Below, piece after piece: positions 36 through 29,632 of a stretch of DNA of 30,263 bases. This DNA comes from a virus, in IMG/VR virus record IMGVR_UViG_3300031566_000251, positions 1-30,263 of that record; one strand, 5' to 3'. How positions within the stretch are numbered: position 1 is the stretch's first letter; each line of letters starts with the position of its first letter. The notes beneath the pieces were generated by a model. The model searched no databases. It was not told the DNA's origin and was given only the letters and a program-made list of their open reading frames with translations. The translations under genes were made by a program, and so were the position numbers.

Positions 36-47
36 TACACTCACGTC
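36..47 (+). promoter_or_regulatory. Leaderless-type -10 box for the gene at 48
   Basis: TACACT lies at 36-41, preceded by TGA (an extended -10), and exactly 6 bases separate it from the ATG at 48. There is no Shine-Dalgarno. Transcription would start at or next to the A of ATG. Essentially the same string (GTGATACACT, six bases, ATG) recurs before the gene at 8914. A TTGACA at 23-28 is only 7 bases from the -10 and cannot be its -35. Confidence 0.65.
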
Positions 48-305
48 ATGAGTGCAGCCACAGAGATCCGCGAACGCTACGCCGACATCATCGCTCAAGC
101 CGAACGCCAAGCCCGCGCCGACGCCGGCCGAATCTGTGCGCTCTGCACCGGAGATCACCGCACCAGCGAATGCGAGACCGGCAAGTTCTACGTGTACCAG
201 TGCGAGCACAGCTACGTCTCGCCCCCACCGCACAGGCTTCGACCGGTCCGCCAGGACATGGTCGAGCTGATCGCCTTGATCTACGAAGCTTTGGAGACGC
301 GATGA
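48..305 (+). CDS. Small Cys-containing phage protein, function unknown
   Basis: This is an 85-residue protein that I do not recognise. The first 28 residues look like a charged helix. Cysteines follow at 30, 33, 42 and 52 with His at 37 and 54, spaced so that a small zinc-binding fold is possible but not proven. The C-terminal 20 residues are again helix-like. The ATG at 48 is chosen because a TACACT -10 box ends 6 bases before it and no ribosome binding site is present, which fits a leaderless start. Its stop overlaps the next ATG by 4 bases (ATGA at 302-305), so the two genes are probably translated together. Position just ahead of the portal suggests a small accessory gene of the packaging region. 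Confidence 0.7.
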   Translation: MSAATEIRERYADIIAQAERQARADAGRICALCTGDHRTSECETGKFYVYQCEHSYVSPPPHRLRPVRQDMVELIALIYEALETR

Positions 306-580
306 CGAAGATGCAGTTCGAGCCCTACGAGCCGGAACTCGGCCCACCCAAGCCGCACGAATGTCTTGACGGGTTCCTCAGCCATACCTGGCAGATGGCG
401 ATCGAAGAAGGGCAAGTCTCCCTGTTCACCGACTGCCATCTGTGCAGCGAAGGCATCTGGCACTGGGTGACCTCCGATGAACTGGCACTGGATGCGATCC
501 CCGTCCTTCTCACCCCTCACGTCGAGGGCCAGGGTTCCGATGGCGTCTACACCTGGATCGAACTCACACCGGTCACTTGA
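302..580 (+). CDS. Small phage protein, function unknown
   Basis: This is a 92-residue acidic protein with no family I can name. It has a Cys at 21 and a Cys-His-x-Cys cluster (45, 46, 48), together with aromatic residues (HTW, IWHW) typical of a small compact fold. The ATG at 302 is used because it overlaps the preceding stop by 4 bases; a longer upstream extension in the same frame would run through the previous gene. It is convergent with the minus-strand gene at 573-869, and their 3' ends overlap by 8 bases. Confidence 0.65.
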   Translation: MTKMQFEPYEPELGPPKPHECLDGFLSHTWQMAIEEGQVSLFTDCHLCSEGIWHWVTSDELALDAIPVLLTPHVEGQGSDGVYTWIELTPVT

Positions 581-869
581 CCCAGAGCGCCTGATACGGC
601 TCGACGAAGTTCTCAAGAATCTCCGGTGACAGCTCCCGGTAGCCGAGAAACACTGCCCGCAGCCGTCGTGCTGCCCCGAGATCGAACGGCGTCGAATCTT
701 CCACCCACCGCTCCCAAGCGGTCTTGCCCATCAACGTCTGAGCATGGTCGAGCAGTTCCCCGAGCCGTAGCGCTTCCCGGTTGACGGTCGCGTACACCTC
801 ACCGGAGATCTGCTCCGGGCTCAAGAGCACTGGTGTACCATCCGGCAGGTGAGCGTCCACGAAGTCCAA
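573..869 (-). CDS. Minus-strand small protein, possible helical or DNA-associated factor
   Basis: This is the only convincing minus-strand gene in the window. The 98-residue product is helix-rich, with an AWERWVE stretch followed by TPFDLGAARRLRAVF, a pattern loosely like phage proteins of the DUF3102 type; that resemblance is from memory and is not proof. The longest frame begins at TTG 869; a GTG at 860 is the alternative. Upstream on the minus strand, TAGGAC (876-881) ends 6 bases before the TTG, close to the leaderless spacing used by plus-strand genes but with C instead of the final T. The first 21 bases overlap the start of the plus-strand gene at 849. Without it 581-848 would be empty, unusual in such a compact genome. 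Confidence 0.6.
   Translation of the reverse strand: MDFVDAHLPDGTPVLLSPEQISGEVYATVNREALRLGELLDHAQTLMGKTAWERWVEDSTPFDLGAARRLRAVFLGYRELSPEILENFVEPYQALWVK
836..848 (+). promoter_or_regulatory. Leaderless-type -10 box for the gene at 849
   Basis: TACCAT at 836-841 ends 7 bases before the GTG at 849, and no Shine-Dalgarno is visible. This supports the GTG as the start. The box lies inside the coding region of the minus-strand gene 573-869. Confidence 0.45.
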
Positions 870-1298
870 GGGTACGTCCTATGCGCCCGCTGCCGTGACT
901 CTCTCGTCATCGAGCCGGTCGCCAACCGCACCGGAGGGATCTGCACCACCTGCCTTGCTGAACGCGGCAGCCCGCTCAAAGAGATCGAAGTCGAAGCACG
1001 CGGCGCACGCTTCCAGATCCCGCTCGGTCGCCCCAAGCGCGCACCGCGCAGGAAATCGCCCGAAGCCAAAGCCCGCGAGCGCGTCGTCGACAAATGCAAA
1101 GAGCGGGCGATGAAGCGCCTCCGCGCCATCTTCCCCGACCTCTACGACATCCTCCTCGCCGAAGAACGCGCCGCGGTCGGACTCGACCCCTGGCCGCTCG
1201 GCTCAGCCCTCCGCCACGGCCCGGACCCTGACGGGAGCCAGACTGAAGCGTTCGCCGTGCTCTACCATGCCCTCCAGGACCGAGGAGTAGACGCGTGA
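849..1298 (+). CDS. Zinc-ribbon-like phage protein, function unknown
   Basis: This is a 149-residue basic protein. CxxC pairs at residues 12/15 and 32/35 form a probable zinc ribbon. A Lys/Arg-rich segment (about 56-90) and an acidic, helix-like C-terminal half follow. A zinc ribbon plus a basic patch directly before the portal gene is compatible with a nucleic-acid-binding or packaging accessory role, but this is inference. The GTG at 849 is supported by a TACCAT box 7 bases upstream. The 3' end overlaps the portal start by 4 bases (GTGA). The 5' end overlaps the oppositely oriented gene at 573-869 by 21 bases. Confidence 0.7.
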   Translation: MSVHEVQGYVLCARCRDSLVIEPVANRTGGICTTCLAERGSPLKEIEVEARGARFQIPLGRPKRAPRRKSPEAKARERVVDKCKERAMKRLRAIFPDLYDILLAEERAAVGLDPWPLGSALRHGPDPDGSQTEAFAVLYHALQDRGVDA

Positions 1299-4423: not shown

Positions 4424-4469
4424 TCGTCGTATTCCCACGTTGATTTGACGCACCACCAGGAGGCGGCGC

Positions 4470-7381: not shown

Positions 7382-7459
7382 ATGGAGGCAACGGTTTCGG
7401 GGCTACTGCAAGGGTCTAGCGGGACCGGTCTGCGTCCCGGCTCGCAAGGTTCTGGGCTA
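7382..7459 (+). repeat. Duplicated N-terminal anchor module, copy 1
   Basis: The first 26 codons match 8151-8228 with about eight base differences by eye. Similarity stops abruptly after the shared GSQGSGL residues. The short segment was duplicated and joined to unrelated domains. Confidence 0.85.
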
Positions 7460-8149: not shown

Positions 8150-8150
8150 C

Positions 8151-8228
8151 ATGAAGGCAACGGTTTCGGGGCTACTGCAAGGGTCGCACGGGACCGGGCT
8201 GCGTCCCGGCTCCCAAGGCTCCGGGCTC
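8151..8228 (+). repeat. Duplicated N-terminal anchor module, copy 2
   Basis: This is the second copy of the 78-base module at 7382-7459, again covering the first 26 codons of a gene. Confidence 0.85.
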
Positions 8229-8901: not shown

Positions 8902-8913
8902 TACACTTGCGTC
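8902..8913 (+). promoter_or_regulatory. Leaderless-type -10 box heading the glycosyltransferase/methyltransferase cassette
   Basis: TACACT at 8902-8907, preceded by TGA, ends 6 bases before the ATG at 8914. No Shine-Dalgarno is present. It is the only clear promoter candidate for the ten-gene cassette to 16579 and nearly matches the box at 36-47. Confidence 0.7.
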
Positions 8914-9921
8914 ATGCACGTCGTCCAGCTCGGAAACCGGGTCCCGCCTTTCAGCACAGAGAACGACCTCCATCACGCGATGGTCGAAGGCAACGGCTGG
9001 GACGTCCGCTTCATCCAAGAAGGCGACAGCACGGCCTTGCTCCAGTTCATCACCGACCTCCAAGCCGGGTTCGAGCGGCCCGACTTCATCTTGTGGACCT
9101 CGACTCGCGACCTCGCCAACCAGTGGGGTCACGAACTCCAATGGAAGCTGCTCGCCGAAGCCCGCCGCCACAACATCCCCGTCGTCGCTTACCACCTCGA
9201 CAGATGGATGGGGCTGAAACGCCAGAACGCGATGCCCACCGAACCGTACTTCCGGGTCGATCTGCTCGCCACCGCCGACGGCGCCCATCAAGACGAATGG
9301 GCCAAAGCCGACGTCAACCATCACTGGATGCTCCCCGGCGTCTCCGAGCGCTGGTGCCAGCCCGGCACGTACCGCGAAGAACTGGCGACCGACATCGTGT
9401 TCGTCGGCTCCTGGCAGGACTATGGTCATCGTGAATGGCGCCATCGTGGTGAACTCGTCGCCTGGCTCCAGAAGACCTACGGGGATCGGGTCGCGTTCTA
9501 CCCGAAGCAAGGCGAGCACGCTGTCCGCGGCCTGGAGTTAAACGACGTGTACTGGTCAGCGAAGGTTGTCGTCGGCGACTCGTGTCTCGCCCCCAAAGTC
9601 GACGGTTCTCCGATGACCAACTACTGCTCGGACCGCGTCCCCGAGACCCTCGGCCGCGGCGGCTACCTCCTGCACCCGTCAGTGGAAGGCATCAACGACT
9701 TCCACGATCCGTTCTGGGATGCTGATTGCTTGTGTGATTGGTGGGAGATGGGCGACTGGGGCCAGCTCCGAACTCGGATCGACACCGAACTCAGCACAGG
9801 TGATTTCAGTTCCTCCGAGGAGCGCCTGCGTCGGATCGAACTCATCCGCGAGAACCACACCTACACGGTGCGGATGCGACAGCTTGCCGAACTGCTCATC
9901 GACAAAGGGATGCTGCCATGA
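8914..9921 (+). CDS. Glycosyltransferase, CgeB-like (GT-B fold)
   Basis: This is a 335-residue probable sugar transferase. The layout fits the CgeB-like group: an N-terminal Rossmann-like half (HVVQLGNRVPPFS; FILWTSTRDL), a middle strand TDIVFVGSWQDYGHREWRHRG of the type that marks the start of the nucleotide-sugar half, then SDRVPETLGRGGYLLHPSVEGI, matching the conserved donor-site region in which a cell surface or spore-coat transferase holds its nucleotide sugar. Donor and acceptor are unknown. It is the first gene of the cassette; the start is leaderless-type and the stop overlaps the next ATG by 4 bases. Its position within virion genes suggests the acceptor is a virion protein or a glycan on one. 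Confidence 0.72.
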   Translation: MHVVQLGNRVPPFSTENDLHHAMVEGNGWDVRFIQEGDSTALLQFITDLQAGFERPDFILWTSTRDLANQWGHELQWKLLAEARRHNIPVVAYHLDRWMGLKRQNAMPTEPYFRVDLLATADGAHQDEWAKADVNHHWMLPGVSERWCQPGTYREELATDIVFVGSWQDYGHREWRHRGELVAWLQKTYGDRVAFYPKQGEHAVRGLELNDVYWSAKVVVGDSCLAPKVDGSPMTNYCSDRVPETLGRGGYLLHPSVEGINDFHDPFWDADCLCDWWEMGDWGQLRTRIDTELSTGDFSSSEERLRRIELIRENHTYTVRMRQLAELLIDKGMLP

Positions 9922-10301
9922 CTGGCGAGATGTGGGTCATCGAATCCGGGGACTACTCGTACTATCAAGTTCGAGCAATCTGCGCGACAGAGGAGGAGGC
10001 CCGAGCCGCCTGCGAGCGAGCAAACAGAATGCTGGAGGGCTCCCACGAAGATCGCTGGGAGTGCTCTCCCCGTCCGATCATTGAAGCCGAGGATGTGTCC
10101 TTGCTGCATTGGGCGCAAGCGCGAGCCGACGGGACCCACATCTCTGGGTACACCAGAGTCGGTTTCCGCCAAGACGAAGGGGTTGTGGCGTGGGATTCGT
10201 CCGGGGCGTGGGTCACCACTGAGGCTTCGACGCCGGAGCGTGCCGCCAAGATCGCACAGGATCGTCAGGCCCAACTCAAAGCGGAAGCGATGTTGCCATG
10301 A
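9918..10301 (+). CDS. Small hypothetical protein in the glycan cassette
   Basis: This is a 127-residue protein with no family I can assign confidently. The first 35 residues (WVIESGDYSYYQVRAICATEEEARAACERAN) resemble short phage domains that start with a strand, then an ATEEEA helix. The rest is a mixed alpha/beta segment with a WDSSGAWVTT strand and an Ala/Lys-rich C-terminal helix. It overlaps both neighbours by 4 bases (ATGA), so it is translated as part of the cassette, but nothing links it to sugar chemistry except location. Confidence 0.6.
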   Translation: MTGEMWVIESGDYSYYQVRAICATEEEARAACERANRMLEGSHEDRWECSPRPIIEAEDVSLLHWAQARADGTHISGYTRVGFRQDEGVVAWDSSGAWVTTEASTPERAAKIAQDRQAQLKAEAMLP

Positions 10302-14182: not shown

Positions 14183-14197
14183 CAGGAGAAGAAACCG

Positions 14198-15647: not shown

Positions 15648-16579
15648 AGATCCATGCAGTCGGATCCTTGCCGCACTACCGCGATCACGTCGAAGCCACC
15701 TGGCAGCATCTCCCGGACGCCCTGAAAGGTGAGCAGTCGTGGGGCCGCGGGGCCTCTGCTCCCAGAAGTGCTGACCCCCGCGACCTTGTGATGGTTGCTG
15801 GGTATTACGACGTCGACCGGGCCCGCGGTCACAGCGTGGTCTATGTCGAGCACGGCGCCGGGCAGTCCTACTACTCGGAGAACGGCAAGCCGCACCCCGC
15901 CTACCACGGCTCGGAGCACCCGGACAACGTTGTCGTCTACCTGTCGCCGAATCAGAAGGTCGCCGACTCATGGGATCGCCCTGCCTACGCCGTCGGCGCG
16001 CCCGTCTGTGACCCGTACCCGTTGATCACCGACAACCAGAGGCCAGTCGTCGCCATCACCTTCCACTGGGACTGCACGCTGTTCCCGGAGACCCGTTCCG
16101 CGCTCGACCACTACCAGAAACATCTCGGCCGCCTCGTCCGGTTCTTGCGCGAGCAAGGGTTCGATGTCCTCGGACACCACCACCCCCGCGACCCGCGCCT
16201 GCCCATCATCTGGCGCAACCTCCAGGTTCGCCCGGCCACCGTCCACGAGGTTCGCCGGTCCGCCGACATCCTGGTCGTCGACAACAGCTCCCTCGCCTAC
16301 GAGATGCTGTACCTCAACCGCTCCGTCGTCACCCTCAACGCCCCCTGGTATCGACGTGAGGTCGAACACGGCCTCCGCTTCTGGGAACACGTCCCCGGCC
16401 AAGCCGTAGATGAACCAGAAGAACTCTTCGATATCGACTGGCAGTCATTTGTCGCCACCCCCGGGATGCCGCCGATGTCAGCAGTCCCAGCGCTCGCCGC
16501 GTACGGCAACGCGATGTCTGACGGCGGCGACGGGATTCGCGCTGCGGCGAGCGTGACCGCGTTCGTTGCAGGGATGTAG
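15644..16579 (+). CDS. Probable CDP-glycerol/polyol-phosphate transferase-like GT-B enzyme
   Basis: This is a 311-residue protein. VVYVEHGAGQSY (65-76) recalls the H-G-x motif of the N-terminal half of teichoic-acid-type polymerases (TagF/TagB family), and SADILVVDNSSLAYEMLYLNRSVVTL (206-231) closely follows their donor-site pattern T-D-x-S-S-x-x-x-E-x-x-x-x-x-x-P-V. It is shorter than full polymerases, so a single-addition enzyme is more likely than a polymerase. If correct, the cassette attaches a glycerol- or ribitol-phosphate, or similar group, to the glycan. A capsular-polysaccharide or other GT-B enzyme is the alternative. The stop codon TAG (16577-16579) forms the first half of the next gene's -10 box. 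Confidence 0.6.
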   Translation: MKIHAVGSLPHYRDHVEATWQHLPDALKGEQSWGRGASAPRSADPRDLVMVAGYYDVDRARGHSVVYVEHGAGQSYYSENGKPHPAYHGSEHPDNVVVYLSPNQKVADSWDRPAYAVGAPVCDPYPLITDNQRPVVAITFHWDCTLFPETRSALDHYQKHLGRLVRFLREQGFDVLGHHHPRDPRLPIIWRNLQVRPATVHEVRRSADILVVDNSSLAYEMLYLNRSVVTLNAPWYRREVEHGLRFWEHVPGQAVDEPEELFDIDWQSFVATPGMPPMSAVPALAAYGNAMSDGGDGIRAAASVTAFVAGM

Positions 16580-16588
16580 TCTCCAAAT
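16577..16588 (+). promoter_or_regulatory. Leaderless-type promoter built on a stop codon, ahead of the connector gene
   Basis: TAGTCT (16577-16582) ends 6 bases before the ATG at 16589. Its TAG is the stop of the preceding gene. GTGACC at 16553-16558, 18 bases upstream, is a fair -35. No Shine-Dalgarno is present. Confidence 0.65.
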
Positions 16589-17347
16589 ATGACACTTCGC
16601 GCCGCCGCCGAACAGTTCGTCACTCTCGCTGACGTGCGGGCCGCACCGAGCTGTAGCTGCATCACAGATGATGACCCGTCAGACGCTGACGTCGGGCTAC
16701 TGATCGACGCTGCCAGCGATGCACTCACGGTCCTGTCCGGTGGCGCCGTGTTCGGCCGCCAGACGGCGACGTTCTTCCCGTGCCGGGTCCTTCCAGACAG
16801 ATGCGGATGCGGATGCGGGTGTGGGCTTGACGCGATCCCACTCGACGGCCACGATCCCGTCGTCACCGAAGTCAAGATCGACGGCGTCGCGCTGGACGCC
16901 GCCGACTACAACCTGCACTCCGGGCGCGACGGCCGCTGGCATCTCGTCCGCGAGGCCACCGACCTCCAACCGAACTCATGGCCGTCGTCTCAGTCGATGT
17001 GGCGCCCCGATACCGAAGACGACACGTTCTCGGTCACCTACACCTATGGTCAGCACCTCGACTGGATCACCGAACAGGCCGCCCTGGAGCTGGTCTGCGA
17101 CTTCGCTGCCGAGAACGTCACCAAGACCAACCAGATCGCCCCGGGAGCCACCTCAGCAAACCTGGGAGGCGTCACGGTCGGGTTCGGCACCGGGTACACC
17201 CTCGCCGAGCGCCTGGAGCGCCTCCAGGCCGGCGACCTCGGCCCCGCGGTCACCAGGTTCATGTCGGTCTACGCACCCCACGGTCGTCGCCATTCCGAGG
17301 TGTGGGCTCCTGAACTTGAGCCGTGGAAGATGACCGTCAAGCAGTGA
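16589..17347 (+). CDS. Head-tail connector (adaptor) protein, Cys-rich
   Basis: This is a 252-residue protein fitting the gp6/gp15-like adaptor that docks on the portal: an N-terminal helical part with ITDDDPSDADVGLLIDAASDAL (a start common in these proteins), a strand VVTEVKIDGVALDAADYNLHSG giving the insertion loop, then LDWITEQAALELVCDFAAENV. The C-terminal WAPELEPWK is tail-like. It contains an extraordinary C-G-C-G-C-G-C-G run at 72-79, plus C22, C24 and C65, not typical of adaptors. The leaderless start is supported by a TAGTCT box. The stop overlaps the HNH gene by 4 bases. Confidence 0.75.
   Translation: MTLRAAAEQFVTLADVRAAPSCSCITDDDPSDADVGLLIDAASDALTVLSGGAVFGRQTATFFPCRVLPDRCGCGCGCGLDAIPLDGHDPVVTEVKIDGVALDAADYNLHSGRDGRWHLVREATDLQPNSWPSSQSMWRPDTEDDTFSVTYTYGQHLDWITEQAALELVCDFAAENVTKTNQIAPGATSANLGGVTVGFGTGYTLAERLERLQAGDLGPAVTRFMSVYAPHGRRHSEVWAPELEPWKMTVKQ
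16800..16823 (+). repeat. Hexanucleotide repeat encoding alternating Cys-Gly
   Basis: GATGCG occurs three times in tandem (16800-16817) and continues as a degenerate GGTGTG unit. It encodes the alternating Cys-Gly run in the connector and could expand or contract in steps of two residues. Confidence 0.7.
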
Positions 17348-17719: not shown

Positions 17720-17756
17720 ACGTCCAAGAAGCGTCCCGACGCGAAAGGACCAACCC

Positions 17757-18559: not shown

Positions 18560-18571
18560 TAGGATCAGCTC
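18560..18571 (+). promoter_or_regulatory. Leaderless-type -10 box for the gene at 18572
   Basis: TAGGAT (18560-18565) ends 6 bases before the ATG at 18572, downstream of the tail-gene hairpin. No Shine-Dalgarno and no clear -35 are present. Confidence 0.65.
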
Positions 18572-19153
18572 ATGGCTCTTCCCGCCGCCTCCTGCGCCGC
18601 CGACATTCCCTCCGACTACTGCTGCGACACGTTGGCGAACATCGCCAACCGGATCCGCACCGTCGCAATGGACGGCCTCACCTCGTGTATGGATCCGTCG
18701 TGCGCGGACCGCGAGTTCCGTTCGTTCGTGTCGATCGGCCCGAACATCCAGGACCCGCTCGGCGACTCTCTGATCGTTCACATGACCGACTTCGGTCCGA
18801 CCCAGGGCTCCACCGACGGGCCGGGGAACCTGTTCAAGGTCGCCGTGCATCGCGGCGACTTCGAGGTGCGACTGCTTGACAACGGCTGGCCGATGATCCA
18901 GACGGAAGACATGACCGCGTCGATCATCGCCCCGGACTCCGACTACGTGCACGCGATCGCGATGCATTCGATGGGGCACGGCGAGAAGATGTACCGGGCT
19001 CTGGTCGACGCGATCCAGCGCAGCGAGATGTTCGTCGGCTCGGCGAACGGCCACATCGGCAAGGTCCAGATCTCGTCGCTGCGTCCGATCCAACCCACCT
19101 CGTTCATGGTCGGCTGGAACTGCACGGTCCGCGTGGAGACGCTCCTGCGATGA
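18572..19153 (+). CDS. Tail completion/terminator candidate
   Basis: This is a 193-residue protein with an N-terminal Cys-rich helix region (C8, CC17-18, C39, C44), then a beta-rich core RSFVSIGPNIQDPLGDSLIVHMTDFGPTQG and FEVRLLDNGWPMIQ, as in a family of actinophage structural proteins located near the major tail gene. Their size and place suggest tail terminator or completion, but I cannot show this from motifs. The ATG is supported by a TAGGAT box 6 bases upstream. It overlaps the next gene by 4 bases. Finding it after the major tail gene, not before, is unusual for a terminator. Confidence 0.6.
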   Translation: MALPAASCAADIPSDYCCDTLANIANRIRTVAMDGLTSCMDPSCADREFRSFVSIGPNIQDPLGDSLIVHMTDFGPTQGSTDGPGNLFKVAVHRGDFEVRLLDNGWPMIQTEDMTASIIAPDSDYVHAIAMHSMGHGEKMYRALVDAIQRSEMFVGSANGHIGKVQISSLRPIQPTSFMVGWNCTVRVETLLR

Positions 19154-19665
19154 TCGAAGTCCGCCTTGACGAACGCTCGATCGATCGTTTGGCGAAAGTG
19201 ATCGCAGCGCGAGCTGAGGTCGAGGTGGACAAGGTTGCCCATGAAAGTGCGATCCTCGCAGCCCGCCTGATGGAGGAGACCTACCCACAGGTACTCCAGG
19301 ATGCCGGGCTGGTCGCGAAACCGAAGGTCGGCAGGACCAAGCCGCGCGACATCGTCAAGCTGTCGGAGGCGATGGCGGGCTCGGTCGAGAAGACGCCCAG
19401 GGGGTATCGGGCGGTCCTCAAGATGAAGGACGGCCTCTCCGAAGAATCCAAGGCCAAGGTCAACACCCTGTTCATGAAGGGACGCTCTGTTCCGCACAGC
19501 ATCCCCAAGGAGCCACCGAACTCCAAATGGATGACCGGCTGGGAGTATGAAGGGAAACAGGTGTTCACGAAAGAGGTTTGGCACCCGGGCAGCCGGGGCC
19601 ACTTCTCGACGCTGCGTCTGGTCCGCGACCGGGTGTATCAGCGCATCCGGCGCGGCGCGGTGTAA
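19150..19665 (+). CDS. Neck/head-closure-like protein (HK97 gp10-like candidate)
   Basis: This is a 171-residue basic protein. The N-terminal third is a long helix region (LAKVIAARAEVEVDKVAHESAILAARLMEE), followed by a mixed region (MAGSVEKTPRGYRAVLKMKDG) and WHPGSRGHFSTLRLVRDRVYQRIRRG at the C-terminus. The His-Pro-Gly before a helical end and the leading helix recall HK97 gp10-like proteins that link head and tail. The resemblance is moderate. ATGA overlap links it to the preceding gene, and its TAA stop (19663-19665) forms the start of the next gene's possible -10. Confidence 0.55.
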   Translation: MIEVRLDERSIDRLAKVIAARAEVEVDKVAHESAILAARLMEETYPQVLQDAGLVAKPKVGRTKPRDIVKLSEAMAGSVEKTPRGYRAVLKMKDGLSEESKAKVNTLFMKGRSVPHSIPKEPPNSKWMTGWEYEGKQVFTKEVWHPGSRGHFSTLRLVRDRVYQRIRRGAV

Positions 19666-19676
19666 CATTCCCAGTC
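19663..19676 (+). promoter_or_regulatory. Possible -10 box on a stop codon, ahead of the tail chaperone
   Basis: TAACAT (19663-19668) begins with the stop codon of the preceding gene and ends 8 bases before the ATG at 19677; no Shine-Dalgarno is present. The spacing is 2 bases longer than the main leaderless class, so the support is weaker. Confidence 0.4.
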
Positions 19677-20084: not shown

Positions 20085-20443
20085 TCGGCTGGGCTGTCGC
20101 CGAAGGCCGCCTTGAAATCATCCGGGGCCGGCGCATCCGTCAGGGACTCCCCGGACTGAAAGGGTTGAGCCTTTCCGCGTTCTGTGATCTCGTGTGGTTG
20201 GAGCTGTGGGATGACTGCCCGGCGATGGGGGACCAGGCGAAGTATCGTGAGGCGATCAACACGATCTTCGTCGAGGGCCGCGAGGTAGGTTCCGTCGAGG
20301 TCGTCGGCCCAGACGGCAAGAAGCACACCATCCGCGCCCCGGGTTCGGCGCCGAGCATCGACACTCCGATTCCAGCGAACGCCATGAAAGCGCTCCAGGA
20401 CATCAAAGCCCAGATCGCAGCAGCGCGCACCCCATCGGAGTAG
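20054..20443 (+). CDS. Tail assembly chaperone, frameshifted C-terminal extension (gpGT-like)
   Basis: This is the -1 frame continuation made after slippage at 20048-20054: 129 residues added to the first 126 of the short form, giving a product of about 255 residues. The extension (LIGWAVAEGRLEIIRGRRIRQGLPGL, then LSAFCDLVWLELWDDCP) has the Trp-rich helical pattern of the T part of such chaperones, which binds the tape measure protein. A TTG at 20165 could also begin a separate 92-residue product, but the frame is already coding-like from the slippery site. The C-terminal half is linker-like with an Ala-rich helix. The TAG stop forms part of the TAGTGT box before the tape measure gene. Confidence 0.82.
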   Translation, partial: RGRRQLVHRLIGWAVAEGRLEIIRGRRIRQGLPGLKGLSLSAFCDLVWLELWDDCPAMGDQAKYREAINTIFVEGREVGSVEVVGPDGKKHTIRAPGSAPSIDTPIPANAMKALQDIKAQIAAARTPSE

Positions 20444-20455
20444 TGTTCCTGAGCG
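20441..20455 (+). promoter_or_regulatory. Possible -10 box on a stop codon, ahead of the tape measure gene
   Basis: TAGTGT (20441-20446) begins with the chaperone stop and ends 9 bases before ATG 20456. The same hexamer at the same distance precedes the gene at 26149 (26134-26139). No good Shine-Dalgarno is present at either. Confidence 0.4.
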
Positions 20456-23400
20456 ATGGCTGATGATGCAACCGTAGGTATTAGGGCGGAGGCTGATGCC
20501 GCGTCCTTCACTAGCGCCGGACGGCAAGGCGCCAACGCGTACGACAAAGGATTCAGCCCGATCAAAGGGATGATCCAACGCTCTATCGACGCTGCGTCAG
20601 GATCTTTCGGAATCTTCGGCAAGGACATGAAGAACCTGAGCGCTGACGCCGGACAGCTCCGTGACGCAATGGCGGGGGTGGGCAACGCAGCCAAAAAGGC
20701 CGGTGCTGCTTTCGCTGACGTGCGAACCGAGAGTCTTGAGCGAGATCTCATTGCGCTGAAAGACCGCAGCGAAGCGTTCAAGGATGCACTCACTTCGACG
20801 GGAGCCCCGCCGAAGCTGTTCGCCGTGTACGAGGCCGAACTTGACAAACTGCTTCGGCTTCAGACCGAGTTCAACCGCGACTACGAGCGGCTTGTCAGCG
20901 ACGACGCCGCTCTCGCTGGATGGAATGATCGGTTCAAGGCGGTCCGGGTCGCCCTGGAACGCGAGACGCAGGCAGTCAAGTCGGGGACAAAGTCGATCCG
21001 CGACCAACTGCGCGATAGCGCCGCTGGAGAGCGGGCCATCGTGCAAGCGGGAGCGAGAGAAAAGACGGCGATCGTCCGGGCGGAAAGCGTCAAGGAGAAC
21101 GCCGTTCTCCAGCAGGCGACGACGATCCGCAATGCCGAGATCCGTACTCAGGCGCAAGTGGCGATCGAGTCCAGCCAACGCACAGCGCGGACGCGCATCG
21201 AGCTGCTCCGCTTCACGTTCCGCCAGATCCAGGTGATCGAACGCTCCATCGGTGCGATCTTCAAGGGAACGGCGGCCGTAGCGGCGGGAGCATTCGCGCG
21301 CGTCGAGAAGACCGTGTTCCGTCTCGCTGGGGTGTTCCGGCGCGGCAACAGCGACTACACCGCTGGCCTCTCGCCAGCGTTGAACAGGCGCGAGGGGATT
21401 ATCAGGCGGTCGTTTCACCGTCAGGAGTCGGATGTACGATCTTCGGTAGCGCGGCAAAGCGTTACGATCCAGCGCTTCGAGGCGCAAGCGTCCACAGGCA
21501 TCGCAGGAGCCCTGACCGGTCGCAGCAGCCTTGGCGCATTGTTCGGTGGCGGTCTCGCCCTTGGTGGCGGGTTCGCACTGTTCCGCAAGTTGAGCGACTC
21601 GCTCCAGGTCGGCGGAGACTTCGTCCAGGGGCTCGCAGTCCTCCAGGCGCAGCTCCAGCTCACCGCCGAAGAGATGGTCGGGGTTCGGCAACTGTCGATC
21701 GACCTCGGCAACGACATCACGCTGCCGGGTGTGTCCGCCCTCGACGCCGCCCAAGCGATCGCCGCCCTCACCAAGCAGTTCGGTGCGCTCGGCGAACAAG
21801 CCCTGCCTGCCGCTCAGTCCGCAGCCAAGGGCGTGTTGCAGCTCTCCAGGGCAACCGGAGCCTCCGCCGAAGACGCCGCAGCACTCGTCGGTTCCGCTAC
21901 GAACGTGTTCGGCATCGGCGCTGACTCGGCAGTCGCCACCGCCGACAAGATCACCGCAGCGTTGACCCGTGCGGCCGGCGTCGGAGTCACCGAGTTCAAG
22001 GACTCGTTCACGCAGGCAGCGAACGTGTTCGCATTGTTCCAGAAGCCGGTGCTCGGCGCCGAGGGGGCGATTGTCGAGCTGAACACAGCCCTGGCGGTGC
22101 TCGCCAAGGGCGGGCTGACCGGATCGCAGGCCGGCACCGGCCTCAAGCAGTTCTTCATTCAGGCGGTGAAGGCAGACGATTCTGCGGTAGCGCTTCGCAA
22201 GAGCATCACCGAGGCGGCGGGGGAATCCGGGGACATCTTCTTCGATGCGAGTGGAAGCGCTCGGGCGTTCACCGACTCGATCGACATTCTCCGTCGCGGT
22301 CTGTCCGATGTGACCGATGCTGAACGCACGCGATCGCTGATCAAGCTGTTCGGTGCCCGTGCCACCACGGTCGCGAACATCCTGATCAACGAAGAGGCCC
22401 AATCCTTCGACGACCTTCGCGAAGCCCAGTTGCGCGAAGGCGCCGCTGCCGATATTGCCGCAGCACAGAACGTTGGCCTCCGGGGCGCGCTCGACGCGTT
22501 GGGTTCGGTGATCGAAACCCAGCAGATCAAGACGTACGAGAGATGGCAGGGCGTCGCAGCGAAGGTCGTCCTGAAGCTGGCCGATCTGTTCCAGGCGTTC
22601 TTCGATGGTGTGGGGATCATGGCGAAGGTTCGCACAGCGATCACCGGAGTCACCATCGCCCTCGGCGCCCTGCTGCTCCTCAAGGGTTCGTTCGAGGTGT
22701 TCAAGTTCTTGAGCATTGGCCTGTCCGGGCTGATCAGTCCGCTCGGTCTGGTCGTTGCGGGGACGGCAGCGCTCGGTGGAGTGATCGCTCTCCTACTGAA
22801 GTCGTCGCCCGATTTCCGCACGGCCATCGGCGATATCGGCAACTCCCTGAATGACGTTGTCGTCCCGATCATCGGGATCGCTGGGGATCTGTTCGCCAAG
22901 TTCGCGACCCTGCTCAACGAGAAGGTACTTCCAGCAATCGTGGACTTCTCGGTTGCCTTGGCGGGCGATCTCCGCCAGCAGGTCCAACGCTTCACCCAGT
23001 TCCTGCAAGACAAAGCAGTTCCGGCGCTGATCAAGTTCAAGGACGCGTTCGTCGAGATCGCCGGGCCGATCATCCGCGACGTATTCGACTTCATCAAGAG
23101 CATTGTGAACCCGGTTATCAGCCGGCTCGGCCAACTCATCGAAGTCGTCGTCATCCCGGCGTTCACCAGGTTCGCAGGCGTCCTGGGCGACAAGGTCGAC
23201 CCAGCGCTTCAGAAGGTTCGGGATTTCGCCAGCACACTTCGCTCAGAGATCGGCCCGCTGATCCAACCGGCAACCGACGCGTTCCGCCAGCTCGGCGACG
23301 CGATCGGCGCGATTGCCGGCCAGGCCGCTTCGGGTGGCGTGAAGGGCAGCAACGCTCCGATCGTCGACTTCTCTGGCCTGATCCCAGCGTTCCAGGCGGT

Positions 23401-26146
23401 CATTGTCGGGATCGCTAAGTCGTTCGCGAACATCGCCGAACGGATCATCGAAGTGCTCGGCCCACAGCTTCTCCGCGTGGTCGGGTTCATCACCGGGTTC
23501 TTCACCGAAGACCGCCTGATCGGGATCGTCTCCGCGTTCGGTCGGATCGCGAAAGCGATCGGCAAGGCGCTCGGCACGATCGTGTCCAGCCCCGAGTTCC
23601 TTGGCGTCATCGCGGCCGTTGTCGCTGCTGCTGGCTACCTGGCGATCTCGTTCCTGGAAGGCTTCGGTCGCGGTCTGGCGGTCGGCCTGCCCCGTACGTT
23701 CGAGGCGCTCAAAGGCGAGATCGGGCCGCTGTTCGGCAAGCTGCTGAAAGGGGTGTTCGATCCGAAGCTGATCGCCAAAGCAATCATCGGCGGTTTCCTC
23801 ATTGTTGGGCTGGCATCATCGCTCGTGAAGACGATGCAGCGTCCGGTGGACACAGCCGGGAAGAAGATTGGCGACGGTTTCGTCAAATCGTTCGCGAAGC
23901 AAATCAAGTACGGCGTCGGGGCGGGGACATCGCGCAACCCGTTCGCGTCGGGCTTCAGGGCGGGGGATCTGCAAACTCTGGAGCGGCAGGCAGCGCAGGG
24001 TGCAGAAGCGCAACTGCGGGGCATTGAGAAAGCGAACGGAAGGGCGGCGGCCCGACTCAAGAATCTTGGCGTAGCTCCCAGGCTCAGCCAGGACGCAAAT
24101 CTTCCTCCGGGGTTCTTCCGCAGCACCACCAAGCAACTTGATGACCTCACTGCTCACGTAGGTGGTGCCTCGAAGCTGCTGGGTGTCGAACTTCGCTCGG
24201 CCATCAGGAACATTCGCGGCGGGTTCGGAGAGATCAGTAGAGGTATCGGAACGACATTTAAGTCGACGACTCAAGAGATGACCAACTACGGCGGTCGCGT
24301 GATCCAGGGTGGGCTGAAGCAGATCGGCGACGGTTTCAAGGCTGGTTTCATCGCCATGAGGGCGAACCTCAAAGGAACTGCGGTGGGGGTCGGGCAGGCC
24401 CTTGGTGGGGCGCTTCTCGGCGGCTTGGGCGCAGTCATGTCCGGTCAGCAGCTCGCCGAAGGAAACAAGCTGCTCGGCATTTCAGGCATCGTCGCGTCGG
24501 GACTCCTGACCCTCCAGGCGACCCAGAGCCCGGCAGCCGCCGCAGCGGTTGTGGGGCTCGGACTCGTGGCGGGTGCGTGGACGAAAGTCAAGAACGAGAC
24601 GAAGGCAGCGAAGGAGGAGGCGCAACGACTGATCGACGTCTACAAGGGTGCGCTCGGAGGGAGCACCGGCCTTGAAGGGCAGGTAAGAGATCTCGGCACA
24701 GCCTTCATCACTGAGATCGGCCGGCTCCCAGCCGGGTCGCAAAACCTTCTCAGCAACATCAACGTCGATGATTTCGCGCGCGGCGTTCTGGACGGCTCAT
24801 ATGACATCCAGCAGGGTTTCGCGAGCATCCTGCGAGATGCCGGCTTCACAGAGAAGGCGATAAGCAACGTATTCGACGAGGACCTCATCAGGATCGACGC
24901 CGACACCGCGCTGGAGAGGTGGCTGGGCCGCCTGCGCGTAGCTGACAACAAGGACGTGATCAGGAAGAGACTTGGGATCGACGGCGAGGTGGATCTGGGC
25001 CAGCTTGACATTGCTGCCACCCTATTCGTCAACACGATCAACGGAATCCCGGAGGTCAAGACCGCCGTTGCCAACAGCCTCAAACTTCAGGCCAGCCAGG
25101 CGGGAACGTTCTTTGACTTCCCGATCCCGGCCGATGTTCTGGCGAATGCTTCCGGTCCCGGCAGCTTCGGGCCTCAGTTGGATGAGGTCGACGAGAAGCT
25201 CCTTAATGCCCAGTACGGCGCAGAAGATCTTCGGCAGGCGATCGACGACTTGAACCTCGCTCGCACCGAGGGGATCCAGTCGAAGATCACTGACCTGACA
25301 ACCGAACTGGACGTCGCCAAATCCATTGCCGAGGACGCCCGGGGAGCACTCGACAACTTGCTGGGCGGCAACTACCGCGACTCGGTCCAGAGCGCCATCG
25401 ACCAGGCGGTGACATCCATCCCGTCGATCGGTTCATCGCTGGCCGATGCGTTCAAGGTCGGCGGAGAATCTGGCGGCTCGTACGTCCGGCAAGCGTTGGA
25501 GCAGTTCAACCTTGGCGAGATCATCAAGAAGCAACTGCTGATTGATCCCGGGACCGATCTTGCCGCTTTCGTCGAGCCGATCCGCGTCGCCATCCGCGAA
25601 GCGAAACTTCCCAAGAACGTCAAGGCGCGCCTCCAGCAGGAGGTCACAGATCAGATCGGAACTGATGGGCTGGCGGCGACCGCCCAGATGATCCTTGATG
25701 CTGAGGCGGAAGTGTCCCGGCTCCAAGAGGAGATCGACAAGTACACGGTGGACCTTCACGCCAACGTGATCATCGACAGCAATCAGATCCGGCTCGCCTT
25801 GGCGGAAGCGGGCTTCGATGTTCGCAACTTCAACCCGGTCGAGGCCAGGAACGCCCAGTTCGACCCCGCACAGATCGCCGAAGGTCAGCGCCTCGCGAAA
25901 CTCAACGCCGGACCCGAAGCCTCACCCACCACGCCTGCTGCTCCGCAGGGCAGCATCAACGAATACGTGTTCAACGTGGAGCAGACCATCATCGGGACGA
26001 CCAACCCACTGGCAACTGCGGCCGAGACGGTCCGCAGTCTCGCCGCCGCCGCCTCGGGCAGCCTCCTGCGGTTGACTCCGGGCACTGGCGGGTCGGCCAT
26101 AGCTGGTGGCAGATTCAACCCGAACGCCGGAAGTAGTGTGAACTGA
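20456..26146 (+). CDS. Tail tape measure protein
   Basis: This is the longest gene (1896 residues). The protein sets tail length and passes into the cell during DNA ejection. Residues 1-340 are charged, coiled-coil-prone (TAAQ/RE-rich helices). Residues about 370-640 match the TP901-type core, including a KGGLTGSQAGTGLKQFF segment near 551. Long hydrophobic stretches follow near 725-785 (ITGVTIALGALLLL; LGLVVAGTAALGGVIALLL), 1045-1068 and 1430-1450, suitable for membrane insertion. The C-terminal 600 residues are helical and acidic. By the usual rule of about 0.15 nm per residue the tail would be near 280 nm, an upper estimate if the protein is processed. No lysozyme or peptidase motif is visible. 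Confidence 0.92.
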   Translation: MADDATVGIRAEADAASFTSAGRQGANAYDKGFSPIKGMIQRSIDAASGSFGIFGKDMKNLSADAGQLRDAMAGVGNAAKKAGAAFADVRTESLERDLIALKDRSEAFKDALTSTGAPPKLFAVYEAELDKLLRLQTEFNRDYERLVSDDAALAGWNDRFKAVRVALERETQAVKSGTKSIRDQLRDSAAGERAIVQAGAREKTAIVRAESVKENAVLQQATTIRNAEIRTQAQVAIESSQRTARTRIELLRFTFRQIQVIERSIGAIFKGTAAVAAGAFARVEKTVFRLAGVFRRGNSDYTAGLSPALNRREGIIRRSFHRQESDVRSSVARQSVTIQRFEAQASTGIAGALTGRSSLGALFGGGLALGGGFALFRKLSDSLQVGGDFVQGLAVLQAQLQLTAEEMVGVRQLSIDLGNDITLPGVSALDAAQAIAALTKQFGALGEQALPAAQSAAKGVLQLSRATGASAEDAAALVGSATNVFGIGADSAVATADKITAALTRAAGVGVTEFKDSFTQAANVFALFQKPVLGAEGAIVELNTALAVLAKGGLTGSQAGTGLKQFFIQAVKADDSAVALRKSITEAAGESGDIFFDASGSARAFTDSIDILRRGLSDVTDAERTRSLIKLFGARATTVANILINEEAQSFDDLREAQLREGAAADIAAAQNVGLRGALDALGSVIETQQIKTYERWQGVAAKVVLKLADLFQAFFDGVGIMAKVRTAITGVTIALGALLLLKGSFEVFKFLSIGLSGLISPLGLVVAGTAALGGVIALLLKSSPDFRTAIGDIGNSLNDVVVPIIGIAGDLFAKFATLLNEKVLPAIVDFSVALAGDLRQQVQRFTQFLQDKAVPALIKFKDAFVEIAGPIIRDVFDFIKSIVNPVISRLGQLIEVVVIPAFTRFAGVLGDKVDPALQKVRDFASTLRSEIGPLIQPATDAFRQLGDAIGAIAGQAASGGVKGSNAPIVDFSGLIPAFQAVIVGIAKSFANIAERIIEVLGPQLLRVVGFITGFFTEDRLIGIVSAFGRIAKAIGKALGTIVSSPEFLGVIAAVVAAAGYLAISFLEGFGRGLAVGLPRTFEALKGEIGPLFGKLLKGVFDPKLIAKAIIGGFLIVGLASSLVKTMQRPVDTAGKKIGDGFVKSFAKQIKYGVGAGTSRNPFASGFRAGDLQTLERQAAQGAEAQLRGIEKANGRAAARLKNLGVAPRLSQDANLPPGFFRSTTKQLDDLTAHVGGASKLLGVELRSAIRNIRGGFGEISRGIGTTFKSTTQEMTNYGGRVIQGGLKQIGDGFKAGFIAMRANLKGTAVGVGQALGGALLGGLGAVMSGQQLAEGNKLLGISGIVASGLLTLQATQSPAAAAAVVGLGLVAGAWTKVKNETKAAKEEAQRLIDVYKGALGGSTGLEGQVRDLGTAFITEIGRLPAGSQNLLSNINVDDFARGVLDGSYDIQQGFASILRDAGFTEKAISNVFDEDLIRIDADTALERWLGRLRVADNKDVIRKRLGIDGEVDLGQLDIAATLFVNTINGIPEVKTAVANSLKLQASQAGTFFDFPIPADVLANASGPGSFGPQLDEVDEKLLNAQYGAEDLRQAIDDLNLARTEGIQSKITDLTTELDVAKSIAEDARGALDNLLGGNYRDSVQSAIDQAVTSIPSIGSSLADAFKVGGESGGSYVRQALEQFNLGEIIKKQLLIDPGTDLAAFVEPIRVAIREAKLPKNVKARLQQEVTDQIGTDGLAATAQMILDAEAEVSRLQEEIDKYTVDLHANVIIDSNQIRLALAEAGFDVRNFNPVEARNAQFDPAQIAEGQRLAKLNAGPEASPTTPAAPQGSINEYVFNVEQTIIGTTNPLATAAETVRSLAAAASGSLLRLTPGTGGSAIAGGRFNPNAGSSVN

Positions 26147-26148
26147 CG
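26134..26148 (+). promoter_or_regulatory. Possible -10 box ahead of the tail protein at 26149
   Basis: TAGTGT (26134-26139) ends 9 bases before ATG 26149, repeating the arrangement before the tape measure gene. It lies inside the last codons of the tape measure gene. Confidence 0.35.
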
Positions 26149-26649: not shown

Positions 26650-28463
26650 CATACGCCAGAACAGTCACCGCCAACCTCTACGAAGAGGACGGGACCACGA
26701 TCGTCGCCAACGCTCTCGACGAGGCGTTCGACATCAACTTCATGGACGAGCTGTCCGGCGTCGGCTTCGGCTCGGTCTCACTCGCGCTTGAAGACCCGGA
26801 CGTCGGCGAGCTGACCGACGGCCGGTTCGTTCGGATCCTGATCGAGGGGACCGCTCGGTTCACGTTCAAGATCGAAGGGAACCCCGAATACCGCCAGATC
26901 CAGCAGGGCGAAGAGATCGCGCAGACGATCACCGCATCGGGGCGCGGGTGGGGTTGCGTGTTCGATGACATCCTCGTCTACCCCGAATACGACATGACGC
27001 TCCCGATCGACTCGTCGTGGCGGCTGTTCTCGTTCGCTTCACCGAACTTCCCGAACGCCTCTGGCTGGGCGGCAGCCACCCAGCAATACGAATACCAGGA
27101 TGCGGTCACGGGTGGCGAAGACCGGGTCCAAGGCGTGTACGACACCGCCGCCCCTCCAGTGCTCACCGTGTACCCGGCGCCGATCGGGTTCCCGTGGCCG
27201 AACTCGCAGAACAACGGGAACGGCTCATCGCCAACCCCGACTTACGTGGGGACCTACTGGATCTGGCCGTCGGCTGCCGCCGAGACCGACATCGGCTACG
27301 CGTTCTTTCGGGACACGTTCACCCTCGCAACGGCGAGCGCGTTCCCGGTTACGTTCTCGGTCACCGCCGACAACCTATTCACCCTGTTCTTGGAGGGCGT
27401 CCCGATCCTCGGGGAAGACGCCGACACGTGGATGTGGCAGGGCTACAAAGAGGTCACCATCCTGCTGCCGGCTGGTACCTACCAGGTTGCTGCGGTCGTC
27501 GAGAACACCGGCATCACTGATGGGCTCGCCAATCCAGGCGGCTTCATCTACGCTGCCTACGTCAACGACACCAACGCGATCCCAACAGCGATCGCCCACG
27601 TCACCGACTCGAACTGGGAAACCGAGTTCGATGCAAGCGTCTGGCCTGGGTGGACCCCCGGTCAGATCATCACCCAGTTCACCGACGAAGCCATTGCCCG
27701 GGGTGGACTCGCCGGATACACCTACCTGGACACCTACGGCGCTGCGATCGACACCGACGGCAACGACTGGGATTCACTTGACACCGCAACATCTTCGATC
27801 TACATCCCGTCCTTCGCGATCCGCGTCGGCGCGACCGGTATCGACCTCCTCAACCAGTTGAACCAGGAGGGTTGGATCGACTGGCATTTCAAGCCGGGCG
27901 CCCTCACCTTGGACGTGTGGGCGGGCGGCCAGGTCGGCTCCACTCCCGGCGTGTCGTTCGTCGAGGGGACGAACATCGGCAGTCTGGAGCGCGGCAGTAC
28001 GAAGCCGTACGCGAACGTGCTGCTGGTCCAGTGGGCCGACTCGATGATCGAGGTGGTCGACTCGTCTGCCGTCACGGCATACGGGACGCGAGTCGAAGAC
28101 GTGTACTCGACAGATGCCGACACCGAAGACGACGCGACGCGACTCGGCCGGATCGAACTCGCCCGCCGTGTGGTCGACGCGAAGGCTGCGGTTGTGATGG
28201 TCGTCGAGCCGGTCTCCACAGCGGACTGCCCATACGAGGCGTTCGGCATCGGCGACTACGTGACGATCCCAAACACGACAGGCGGGACCGAGTCGGTGCA
28301 GGTGCTGTCGATCTCGGTCCGCCAGGATGACCAAGGGTTCGCCGAGTGGACGTTGGAGCTGAACAAGCGCTGGCGCGTCCCCGAGCGCGAACAGTCGGAC
28401 CTGTTGCGTTCGATCGGCGGCAAGACGCAAGGATCGGTCGCCGACAGAGGCGTGGTCGAGTGA
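26646..28463 (+). CDS. Minor tail protein (tail-hub/ReqiPepy6 gp37-like candidate)
   Basis: This is a 605-residue beta-rich protein. The first 130 residues (VTANLYEEDGTTIVANALDEAFDINFMDELSGVGFGSVSLAL, then FVRILIEG, FTFKIEG) and residues 440-600 (VGATGIDLLNQLNQEGWIDWHFKPGALTLDVW; YGTRVEDVYSTDADTEDD; FGIGDYVTIPN) follow the tail-hub pattern in actinophages, similar to the siphovirus ReqiPepy6 gp37-like family that closes the tail tip. A central insert of roughly 110-330 resembles a PA14-like carbohydrate-binding lobe (GYAFFRDTFTL, NLFTLFLEGVPILGED, YKEVTILLPAGTYQVAAVVEN). An in-frame ATG further upstream lies inside the preceding gene, so ATG 26646 is used. Confidence 0.75.
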   Translation: MTYARTVTANLYEEDGTTIVANALDEAFDINFMDELSGVGFGSVSLALEDPDVGELTDGRFVRILIEGTARFTFKIEGNPEYRQIQQGEEIAQTITASGRGWGCVFDDILVYPEYDMTLPIDSSWRLFSFASPNFPNASGWAAATQQYEYQDAVTGGEDRVQGVYDTAAPPVLTVYPAPIGFPWPNSQNNGNGSSPTPTYVGTYWIWPSAAAETDIGYAFFRDTFTLATASAFPVTFSVTADNLFTLFLEGVPILGEDADTWMWQGYKEVTILLPAGTYQVAAVVENTGITDGLANPGGFIYAAYVNDTNAIPTAIAHVTDSNWETEFDASVWPGWTPGQIITQFTDEAIARGGLAGYTYLDTYGAAIDTDGNDWDSLDTATSSIYIPSFAIRVGATGIDLLNQLNQEGWIDWHFKPGALTLDVWAGGQVGSTPGVSFVEGTNIGSLERGSTKPYANVLLVQWADSMIEVVDSSAVTAYGTRVEDVYSTDADTEDDATRLGRIELARRVVDAKAAVVMVVEPVSTADCPYEAFGIGDYVTIPNTTGGTESVQVLSISVRQDDQGFAEWTLELNKRWRVPEREQSDLLRSIGGKTQGSVADRGVVE

Positions 28464-29539
28464 TGGCCCGCGCCCGTCCGAGCTACCTCCGTCCGCATCA
28501 GCCGATCTTTCGCCAGCGGATCATTCACGGCGCGGTCGAAGTCGGCCGCACCCCTGGGCTCATCCCGGGGCCAAACCCGTTCATTCTTGGGATCGCTTCG
28601 TCTGCGGACCTGAATGGCGCCTTGTCGGTCGACGCGTATGGGACCAGCTATGTGGCTGTGGCCGCCTCCAGCGCGGATCGGCTGGTCATGATGGATGTGA
28701 GCGACCCCTCCACCCCCACCGTTGCGGGCAGCGTCACCGACACCGTCCTGAACGGGGCGACCGGCGTGGCTGTAACTGGCGATTATGCGATTGTCGGATC
28801 ACAATCCGCCAGCGGATACGTCGCCGTGGTGGACATCTCGACTCCGGCGTCGCCGTCGGTTGTCGGGTCGGTTACCGGTGGTCTCGTTTCGGGTGCTCAG
28901 TTTGTCACCGTGTCAGGCAACCACGCGTACGTGTCCTGTTACGACTTTGACCGGATTGCCGTGGTTGACATTTCGACGCCAGCGTCGCCGGCGATCGTCG
29001 GGTCGGTCACCGACGGCACGAACCTCAATGGCCCGTATCGTTCCGTCGTGTCGGGCAGCTATCTCTATGTGGCCTGCGATCTGAGTAACGCTCTAACCGT
29101 GGTTGACATTTCGACTCCGGCGTCGCCGTCGGTTGTCGGGTCGGTGTCGGACGCGACGTATCTTGCTGGCGCCCTGTCTGTGGCCGTGAGTGGCAGCTAC
29201 GCGTATGTCGGCGGCTATGCCGACTACTTCGTCGTGGTGGACATCTCGACTCCGGCGTCGCCAGCGATCGTCACGCAAATCCTTGATAGTTCGCTTCTTG
29301 GGAACCTGGCCGATATCAAGATCGTCGGGTCGTATGCCCATGCGGTCACCTACGGCACGTTTGCGTTGTCGACCTATGTGGTGGTGGACATCTCGACTCC
29401 GGCGTCGCCGGCGATCTACGATTACGTGACCGACACGACCGACTTCACGGATCCGCACGGGCTTGTGATTATCGACAACCACGCCTACGTCGCCCGGGAC
29501 AACAACACGACCCAGAATTTCGCCGTTGTTGAGTTCTAG
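28463..29539 (+). CDS. LVIVD-type beta-propeller tail protein, probable receptor binding
   Basis: This is a 358-residue protein. After a roughly 40-residue basic leader (MARARPSYLRPHQPIF) that may dock on the tail, it consists of seven repeats of about 45 residues, each with a hydrophobic strand, a YxYVA-like strand and a VVDISTPASP turn; the last repeat ends at FAVVEF without the turn, as expected if the first and last strands close a ring. This matches the LVIVD repeat family, which forms seven-bladed propellers found on bacterial and archaeal surface proteins. As the last gene of the tail block it likely contacts the host surface. The ATG shares one base with the previous stop. Confidence 0.8.
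   Translation: MARARPSYLRPHQPIFRQRIIHGAVEVGRTPGLIPGPNPFILGIASSADLNGALSVDAYGTSYVAVAASSADRLVMMDVSDPSTPTVAGSVTDTVLNGATGVAVTGDYAIVGSQSASGYVAVVDISTPASPSVVGSVTGGLVSGAQFVTVSGNHAYVSCYDFDRIAVVDISTPASPAIVGSVTDGTNLNGPYRSVVSGSYLYVACDLSNALTVVDISTPASPSVVGSVSDATYLAGALSVAVSGSYAYVGGYADYFVVVDISTPASPAIVTQILDSSLLGNLADIKIVGSYAHAVTYGTFALSTYVVVDISTPASPAIYDYVTDTTDFTDPHGLVIIDNHAYVARDNNTTQNFAVVEF
28688..29409 (+). repeat. DNA-level repeats of the propeller motif
   Basis: A 29-base unit encoding V-V-D-I-S-T-P-A-S-P recurs starting at 28826, 28961, 29099, 29234 and 29381, with a degenerate copy near 28688. Spacing is 135-147 bases. Copies differ at only a few bases, while the sequence between them differs much more. 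Confidence 0.85.
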
Positions 29540-29632
29540 GCGTCAGCTCTGTTGACGTGGCGTGCCTCGCCTGAGCCGACCAGGGGTAGCACCCCGTAGA
29601 TGGCGACGGCGATGATCTCGTAACATGCTGAT
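29540..29632 (+). promoter_or_regulatory. Intergenic region with leaderless-type -10 box
   Basis: TAACAT (29621-29626) ends 6 bases before ATG 29633; no Shine-Dalgarno is present. The rest holds two weak inverted repeats (CGTCA/TGACG around 29551-29567, GGGGT/ACCCC around 29583-29595) that might end the tail transcript, but neither has a T run. Confidence 0.6.

Follow-up and report, generated by a model that had tools for sequence, protein, structure and literature searches.

The 30,263-base stretch of viral DNA analysed here (the window), which is the entire record IMGVR_UViG_3300031566_000251 (G000; 63.6% GC), carries TANNNT hexamers placed exactly 6 bases before the start codons of a subset of its genes, and these are very probably host-type sigma-A promoters for leaderless transcripts. 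The sites are marked by their fixed position, their enrichment in related phages, their conservation at the same genes, their reciprocity with Shine-Dalgarno sites and a C at -1. An earlier note had proposed such a promoter family from the window alone, and enrichment, ortholog conservation, Shine-Dalgarno loss and the C at -1 all speak for that proposal. Its further suggestion that much of the late region is expressed in this way was overstated, as about 6-9 of roughly 27 genes carry the signal.

Genes and candidate sites of the window

The window genes lie nearly all on the + strand. Its capsid and portal proteins match actinobacteriophages at 23-29% identity, the relatives of these two proteins are actinobacteriophages in nearly all cases, and a near relative of the window was not found in the phage collection. 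Minor tail genes are present besides the tape measure gene (20456). The genes, the putative -10 hexamers and the Shine-Dalgarno sites used as contrast are as follows.

36..41, + strand: putative -10 TACACT with TGA before it (extended -10), 6 bases before ATG 48
48..305, + strand: predicted leaderless gene 1, 85 aa (motif-blind start)
836..841, + strand: putative -10 TACCAT, 7 bases before GTG 849
849..1298, + strand: small pre-portal gene, predicted leaderless (motif-blind start, orthologs); no Pfam match
1295, + strand: portal gene
2845, + strand: maturation protease gene
4458..4463, + strand: contrast site, Shine-Dalgarno AGGAGG of the major capsid gene (from sequence)
ATG 4470, + strand: major capsid gene (PHROG 777)
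8902..8907, + strand: putative -10 TACACT with TGA (extended -10), 6 bases before ATG 8914
8914..9921, + strand: glycosyltransferase 1, predicted leaderless (PHROG 28745)
8914-16579, + strand: glycosyltransferase/methyltransferase block
16577..16582, + strand: putative -10 TAGTCT, its TAG being the stop of gene 15644-16579, 6 bases before ATG 16589
16589..17347, + strand: head-to-tail adaptor gene, predicted leaderless (PHROG 783/442)
17744..17749, + strand: contrast site, Shine-Dalgarno-like AAAGGA of the major tail protein gene
ATG 17757, + strand: major tail protein gene (PHROG 792)
18560..18565, + strand: putative -10 TAGGAT, 6 bases before ATG 18572
18572..19153, + strand: gene after the major tail protein (tail-terminator position), predicted leaderless (motif-blind start, orthologs); no PHROG or Pfam family match
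19663..19668, + strand: putative -10 TAACAT that shares bases with the TAA stop of the gene before it, 8 bases before ATG 19677
20441..20446, + strand: putative -10 TAGTGT that shares bases with the TAG stop of the gene before it, 9 bases before the tape measure ATG 20456
20456..26146, + strand: tape measure gene, 1896 aa, predicted leaderless or near-leaderless
26134..26139, + strand: weaker candidate TAGTGT inside the tape measure gene, 9 bases before ATG 26149
29621..29626, + strand: putative -10 TAACAT, 6 bases before ATG 29633

Other features of this gene map were observed. About seven sugar- and methyl-transfer genes stand at 8914-16579 between the capsid-region and head-tail adaptor genes; they include glycosyltransferases, Methyltransf_25, FkbM and a weak CDP-glycerol transferase match, and parts of the block are retained by several relatives. 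Two adjacent genes at 7385-8867 share a near-identical N-terminal peptide, M[EK]ATVSGLLQGS[SH]GTGLRPGSQGSGL. At a minor-tail position (28463-29539) lies a protein built of LVIVD repeats in five stretches (Pfam PF08309, E 2.5e-37), an unusual-looking composition for a phage tail protein.

All five exact TANNNT-6-ATG sites listed in the earlier note (starts 48, 8914, 16589, 18572 and 29633) were present, and over the whole record these five on the + strand were accompanied by none on the - strand. Scanning spacings of 0-24 before ATG on the + strand gave five matches at spacing 6 and 0-2 at each other spacing. A motif-blind codon-usage caller placed gene starts at all five ATGs. First-order Markov resamples contained a mean of 0.78 matches (P(>=5)=0.002 for any ATG), and the binomial probability of five sites at the 28 motif-blind window gene starts was about 4e-10, in agreement with the view that five matches are improbable by chance. 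The Shine-Dalgarno core was missing from all five exact-site starts, as had been noted, in comparison to its presence at 46% of window starts. When spacing was relaxed to 5-9 bases before any ATG, GTG or TTG, TANNNT occurred at 17 places in the window, 9 of which were gene starts.

The looser sites TACCAT-7-GTG (849), TAACAT-8-ATG (19677) and TAGTGT-9-ATG (20456 and 26149) are also real. Those at 849, 19677 and 20456 are backed by relatives, the one at 19677 by gene order only, as genes at the equivalent position have TANNNT-6/7 in records G003, G004, G008 and G013. An ortholog of the gene at 26149 was not detected, and the genes at 48, 8914, 19677 and 29633 had no match when scanned for relatives. 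Of the five exact sites, those at 48 and 29633 stand before genes without detectable relatives, the gene at 29633 being the weakest gene call. A minus-strand candidate at 869 was dropped, as its hexamer TAGGAC is not TANNNT, its start is TTG and its open reading frame is weak.

Conservation at the same genes in orthologs

Ortholog comparison showed that the motif is a property of particular genes. With starts aligned, redundant records removed and a TANNNT start preferred where several were possible, TANNNT was found at the five carrier genes in 29 of 34 non-redundant orthologs, in comparison to 0 of 39 for the capsid, the protease, the major tail protein and the gene after the capsid (7380) (Fisher p about 1e-15, for sequences that are not independent). 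Among the carriers, the gene after the major tail protein had TANNNT in 6/6 non-redundant orthologs, all at exactly 6 bases; the others were the tape measure (5/6, at 6-8 bases), the head-tail adaptor (6/8), glycosyltransferase 1 (6/7, contig L116 included) and the pre-portal gene (TANNNT-6/7 in 6/7, the seventh, from G008, having a doubtful start and being uncounted). The adaptor and the gene after the major tail protein usually have one possible start only. A motif-blind recount gave 6/8 for the adaptor, 5/6 for the tape measure, 4/7 for glycosyltransferase 1, 3/5 for the gene after the major tail protein and 0/3 for the pre-portal gene, and still 0 for the capsid, the protease, the major tail protein and the gene after the capsid. 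Orthologs of these last four genes mostly have Shine-Dalgarno sites, which precede 10/10 called starts of the major capsid gene and 6/7 of the major tail protein gene, the latter with no TANNNT.

These results can be interpreted as a fixed subset of late genes each keeping its own promoter. A sigma-70-class (actinobacterial SigA-type) -10 of the form TANNNT would put the RNA start on the A or G that opens the start codon, or no more than a couple of bases away from it; because RNA synthesis would begin at the start codon, the mRNA would have no 5' leader, and ribosomes would recognise the 5'-terminal AUG or GUG. The subset would comprise the adaptor, the gene after the major tail protein, the tape measure, glycosyltransferase 1, the small pre-portal gene and probably the tail-chaperone gene. 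Genes of high copy number (capsid and major tail) would be translated from Shine-Dalgarno sites, and in the window these two genes, which encode the most abundant virion proteins, do have such sites; many other window genes have overlapping starts typical of coupled translation. That the sites act as promoters, where precisely the transcripts begin, which sigma factor reads them, that translation is leaderless and what the arrangement is for are all predicted here from sequence.

A variant of this reading, which does not exclude it, is that the promoters are real and provide short-leader or secondary transcripts, most virion mRNA coming from one strong upstream late promoter and the internal leaderless promoters being of little importance. 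Tailed phages commonly make a single long late transcript, and the many late genes of the window that abut or overlap one another would fit a single long operon. The tape measure site, at 9 bases, would itself have a short leader (3 nt if the transcript starts 6 bases downstream of the hexamer). This variant is rather unlikely, though it carries appreciable weight. Against it, the -10 is kept and the Shine-Dalgarno site is absent at the same genes across diverged phages, an argument for these starts relying on promoters of their own.

Enrichment in relatives and reciprocity with Shine-Dalgarno sites

IMG/VR scans with a single capsid or portal protein gave no match; a profile of six phage capsids retrieved 16 closer IMG/VR relatives with 37-58% capsid identity. 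From 11 non-redundant IMG/VR relatives, 429 motif-blind gene starts were collected, gene starts in metagenomic records being those of a simple home-made codon-usage caller. The regions upstream of these starts, an alignment that the earlier note had suggested, showed a sharp TANNNT peak at 6-8 bases, with 26 occurrences at spacing 6, 17 at spacing 7 and 6 at spacing 8, in comparison to about one per other spacing. In these relatives the Shine-Dalgarno core accompanied 12-13% of TANNNT carriers and 54% of other starts.

The peak was absent from distant capsid relatives (L027-L090; 2/213 starts at spacing 6) and from a high-GC Pseudomonas phage (65% GC; 0/61 starts with the signal), so that neither base composition nor the gene caller accounts for the pattern. 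It was also absent from a sampled Arthrobacter phage, Microbacterium phages, the lake phage DSL-LC01 and several Gordonia phages; together with the distant relatives, these indicate that it is not general to actinobacteriophages.

Genome-specific elements were additionally observed. Several starts of G008 (L095-L098) are preceded by a repeated GATGTGATATCTT (extended -10 TGATATCTT), a promoter version specific to that genome, and G003 and G011 repeat TAGTATGTC in its place.

Cultured phages

Our survey of 15 cultured phages, with starts as annotated by their depositors, found TANNNT at 28 of 47 portal, adaptor, tape measure and membrane genes in comparison to 0 of 54 capsid, pentamer, major tail and minor tail genes. 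The annotated tape measure start stood at TANNNT-6 in 10/10 phages from Cluster B mycobacteriophages (JakeO, ItsyBitsy1, Heathcliff, RawrgerThat, Phelemich and CRB2), two allied phages (GodPhather and prophi_GD43-6) and Gordonia sourviruses (NHagos and BiggityBass). In these ten, the adaptor, portal and small membrane-protein genes often have TANNNT-6/7 too, and the capsid, pentamer, major tail and minor tail genes have Shine-Dalgarno sites. The annotated starts of Kroos, Nordenberg, Arri and Metamorphoo lacked the signal.

The element of Cluster B and the sourviruses is longer, consisting of GATARCCTGASC directly before the start and, 11-18 bases upstream of it, a TAGCAC-like block, with about 10 bases between the two. 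It lies upstream of the tape measure, adaptor and portal genes in L139, L140, L143, L144, L113, L117 and L010. As this element is longer than a -10, a phage-specific factor is possibly involved in these phages, where it may represent a phage-specific promoter class.

Promoter-like features of the sites

The carriers numbered 76, of which 56 start with ATG, 20 with GTG and none with TTG, although this restriction is a weak test, since TTG was used at just 5/470 other starts. A C at -1 was found in 43/57 carriers in comparison to 102/225 other starts with a gap of at least 9 (p=5e-5). TGN, as in an extended -10, preceded 12/76 sites, both window TACACT sites included. A TTGACA-like -35 at 16-18 spacing was not conserved among 56 or 76 aligned sites, and a missing -35 is normal for mycobacterial SigA promoters (PMC3898074). 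Transcription starts mapped in M. tuberculosis have TANNNT 7-12 bases upstream, no -35 and C as the commonest base at -1 (PMC3898074), ATG and GTG are the codons that initiate leaderless translation in mycobacteria (PMC4633059), and TANNNT about 12 bp before the start marks leaderless genes, which make up about 19% of actinobacterial genes (PMC3160421).

A reading in which the motif is not itself a -10 and accompanies start codons for a different reason, as a DNA or RNA element such as an operator, a binding site of a phage protein or a translation element, is very unlikely. The long Cluster B/sourvirus element, with GATARCCTGASC and its TAGCAC-like block, exceeds a -10 and would suit such a role, and 13-bp start-associated repeats are known from Cluster K phages, their function being unassigned in the source (PMC3203893). 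In the window's own family, however, strong conservation within TANNNT is limited to its T, A and T while the rest of the hexamer varies, and the spacing, the C at -1 and the use of ATG and GTG agree with published leaderless transcription starts. The Cluster K Start-Associated Sequences resemble the sites described here as a conserved element a few bases before a subset of starts; unlike the window sites, they contain AGGAG, are restricted to non-structural genes and are proposed to act in translation (PMC3203893), whereas the carriers here lack Shine-Dalgarno sites. The AGGAG core of their 13-mer, GGGATAGGAGCCC, occurs in no window site.

Stop codons as part of the putative -10

Under the promoter reading, an upstream TAG or TAA stop would sometimes also serve as the TA of the -10, and among carriers with an upstream neighbour the stop does supply these two bases in 16 of 46. 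In 417 same-strand gene pairs a gap of 9 was over-represented (n=17, in comparison to 6, 5 and 6 at gaps 8, 10 and 11), and the upstream stop was TAG or TAA in 15/17 gap-9 pairs versus 25% overall (TGA 75%). The sixth-position T that completes TANNNT was present in 15/20 cases at gaps 9-10 and in 5/33 at other gaps (p=2e-5), and several of the exceptions are Shine-Dalgarno sites that also start in the stop (TAGGAGG, TAAGGAG). The window adaptor is a clear case, its TAGTCT opening with the very TAG that ends the upstream gene, and the same fusion or a near variant of it was found in 6/8 orthologs. An earlier description of a stop codon as part of a -10 was not found in a literature search.

That stops falling near the next start in short gaps produce TANNNT by accident has a negligible likelihood, even with a third or so of neighboured carriers drawing TA from a stop, given the bias in the sixth T, the excess of gap 9 with TAG/TAA stops, the two thirds of carriers that use no stop, and an enrichment and ortholog conservation far above chance.

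Host of the window phage

The nearest relative is L116 (JABDMN010000180.1), a 5.4-kb contig in an Acidimicrobiia metagenome-assembled genome (MAG) with 77% nucleotide identity over 4.4 kb, found with a profile of close relatives that matched one contig. L116 retains TACACT-6-ATG at glycosyltransferase 1, although it lacks the two genes that precede glycosyltransferase 1 in the window. These are the paired genes at 7385-8867, both missing from this 77%-identical contig, where glycosyltransferase 1 comes directly.

The MAG's own genes have TANNNT at spacings 6-8 in 8/65 sampled starts, with the same peak. The 81-kb MAG sample has 54% GC versus about 64% for the phage, which makes mis-binning of L116 possible. 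A count of the pattern across complete Acidimicrobiia genomes gave mixed results, as the reversed-pattern control used for comparison was not matched in composition; for that reason the gene starts of the single MAG were used instead. Overall, an actinobacterial host is likely and its class is uncertain.

Comparison with known systems

Leaderless genes of Actinobacteria (M. tuberculosis, M. smegmatis and Streptomyces) have the same TANNNT about 12 bases upstream of ATG or GTG, no Shine-Dalgarno site, no -35 and C at -1 (PMC3160421, PMC3898074, PMC4633059). The present sites differ in belonging to phage virion genes, in recurring at the same genes across diverged phages and in having some -10 hexamers built from stops. 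Closest among phages are the Cluster O promoters PL1, PL2 and PR2, predicted to be SigA-like and leaderless, their +1 coinciding with the start codon's first base; one of them, PL2, drives a leftward gene inside the structural operon (PMC4351075). These three lie near the ends or on reverse genes, in contrast to the set described here, which stands inside the forward virion operon at the adaptor and tape measure. Late leaderless mRNA, as predicted here, is described for Thermus phage phiYS40, where it concerns most middle and late genes and is accompanied by IF2/IF3 changes (cited in PMC3594737), whereas the present case is a fixed subset beside Shine-Dalgarno-led capsid and tail genes in actinobacteriophages. 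We did not find in the literature a description of the same virion genes keeping a leaderless promoter across diverged actinobacteriophages while the capsid and major tail keep Shine-Dalgarno sites, and a literature search for mapped late transcription starts in mycobacteriophages found none.

Implications for virion gene expression

A stop codon that doubles as half of a promoter would be a compact design. For the hundreds of deposited phages, TANNNT 6-8 bases upstream may aid start-codon annotation by marking the likely true start. The promoter reading also makes a testable prediction, namely that 5' ends should fall at the start codons of the tape measure, adaptor and portal genes in easily grown Cluster B mycobacteriophages.

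Tentatively, and with the balance of probability somewhat against it, the arrangement may amount to a conserved per-gene initiation code in the virion operon of a broad group of actinobacteriophages, in which low-copy proteins (portal, head-tail adaptor and tape measure) would be leaderless, many with stop-fused sites, and high-copy proteins (capsid, pentamer and major tail) would be Shine-Dalgarno-led. This raises the question of why low-copy virion proteins would be leaderless and high-copy ones not. If such a code is true, expression would be set per protein and not by one late operon promoter.
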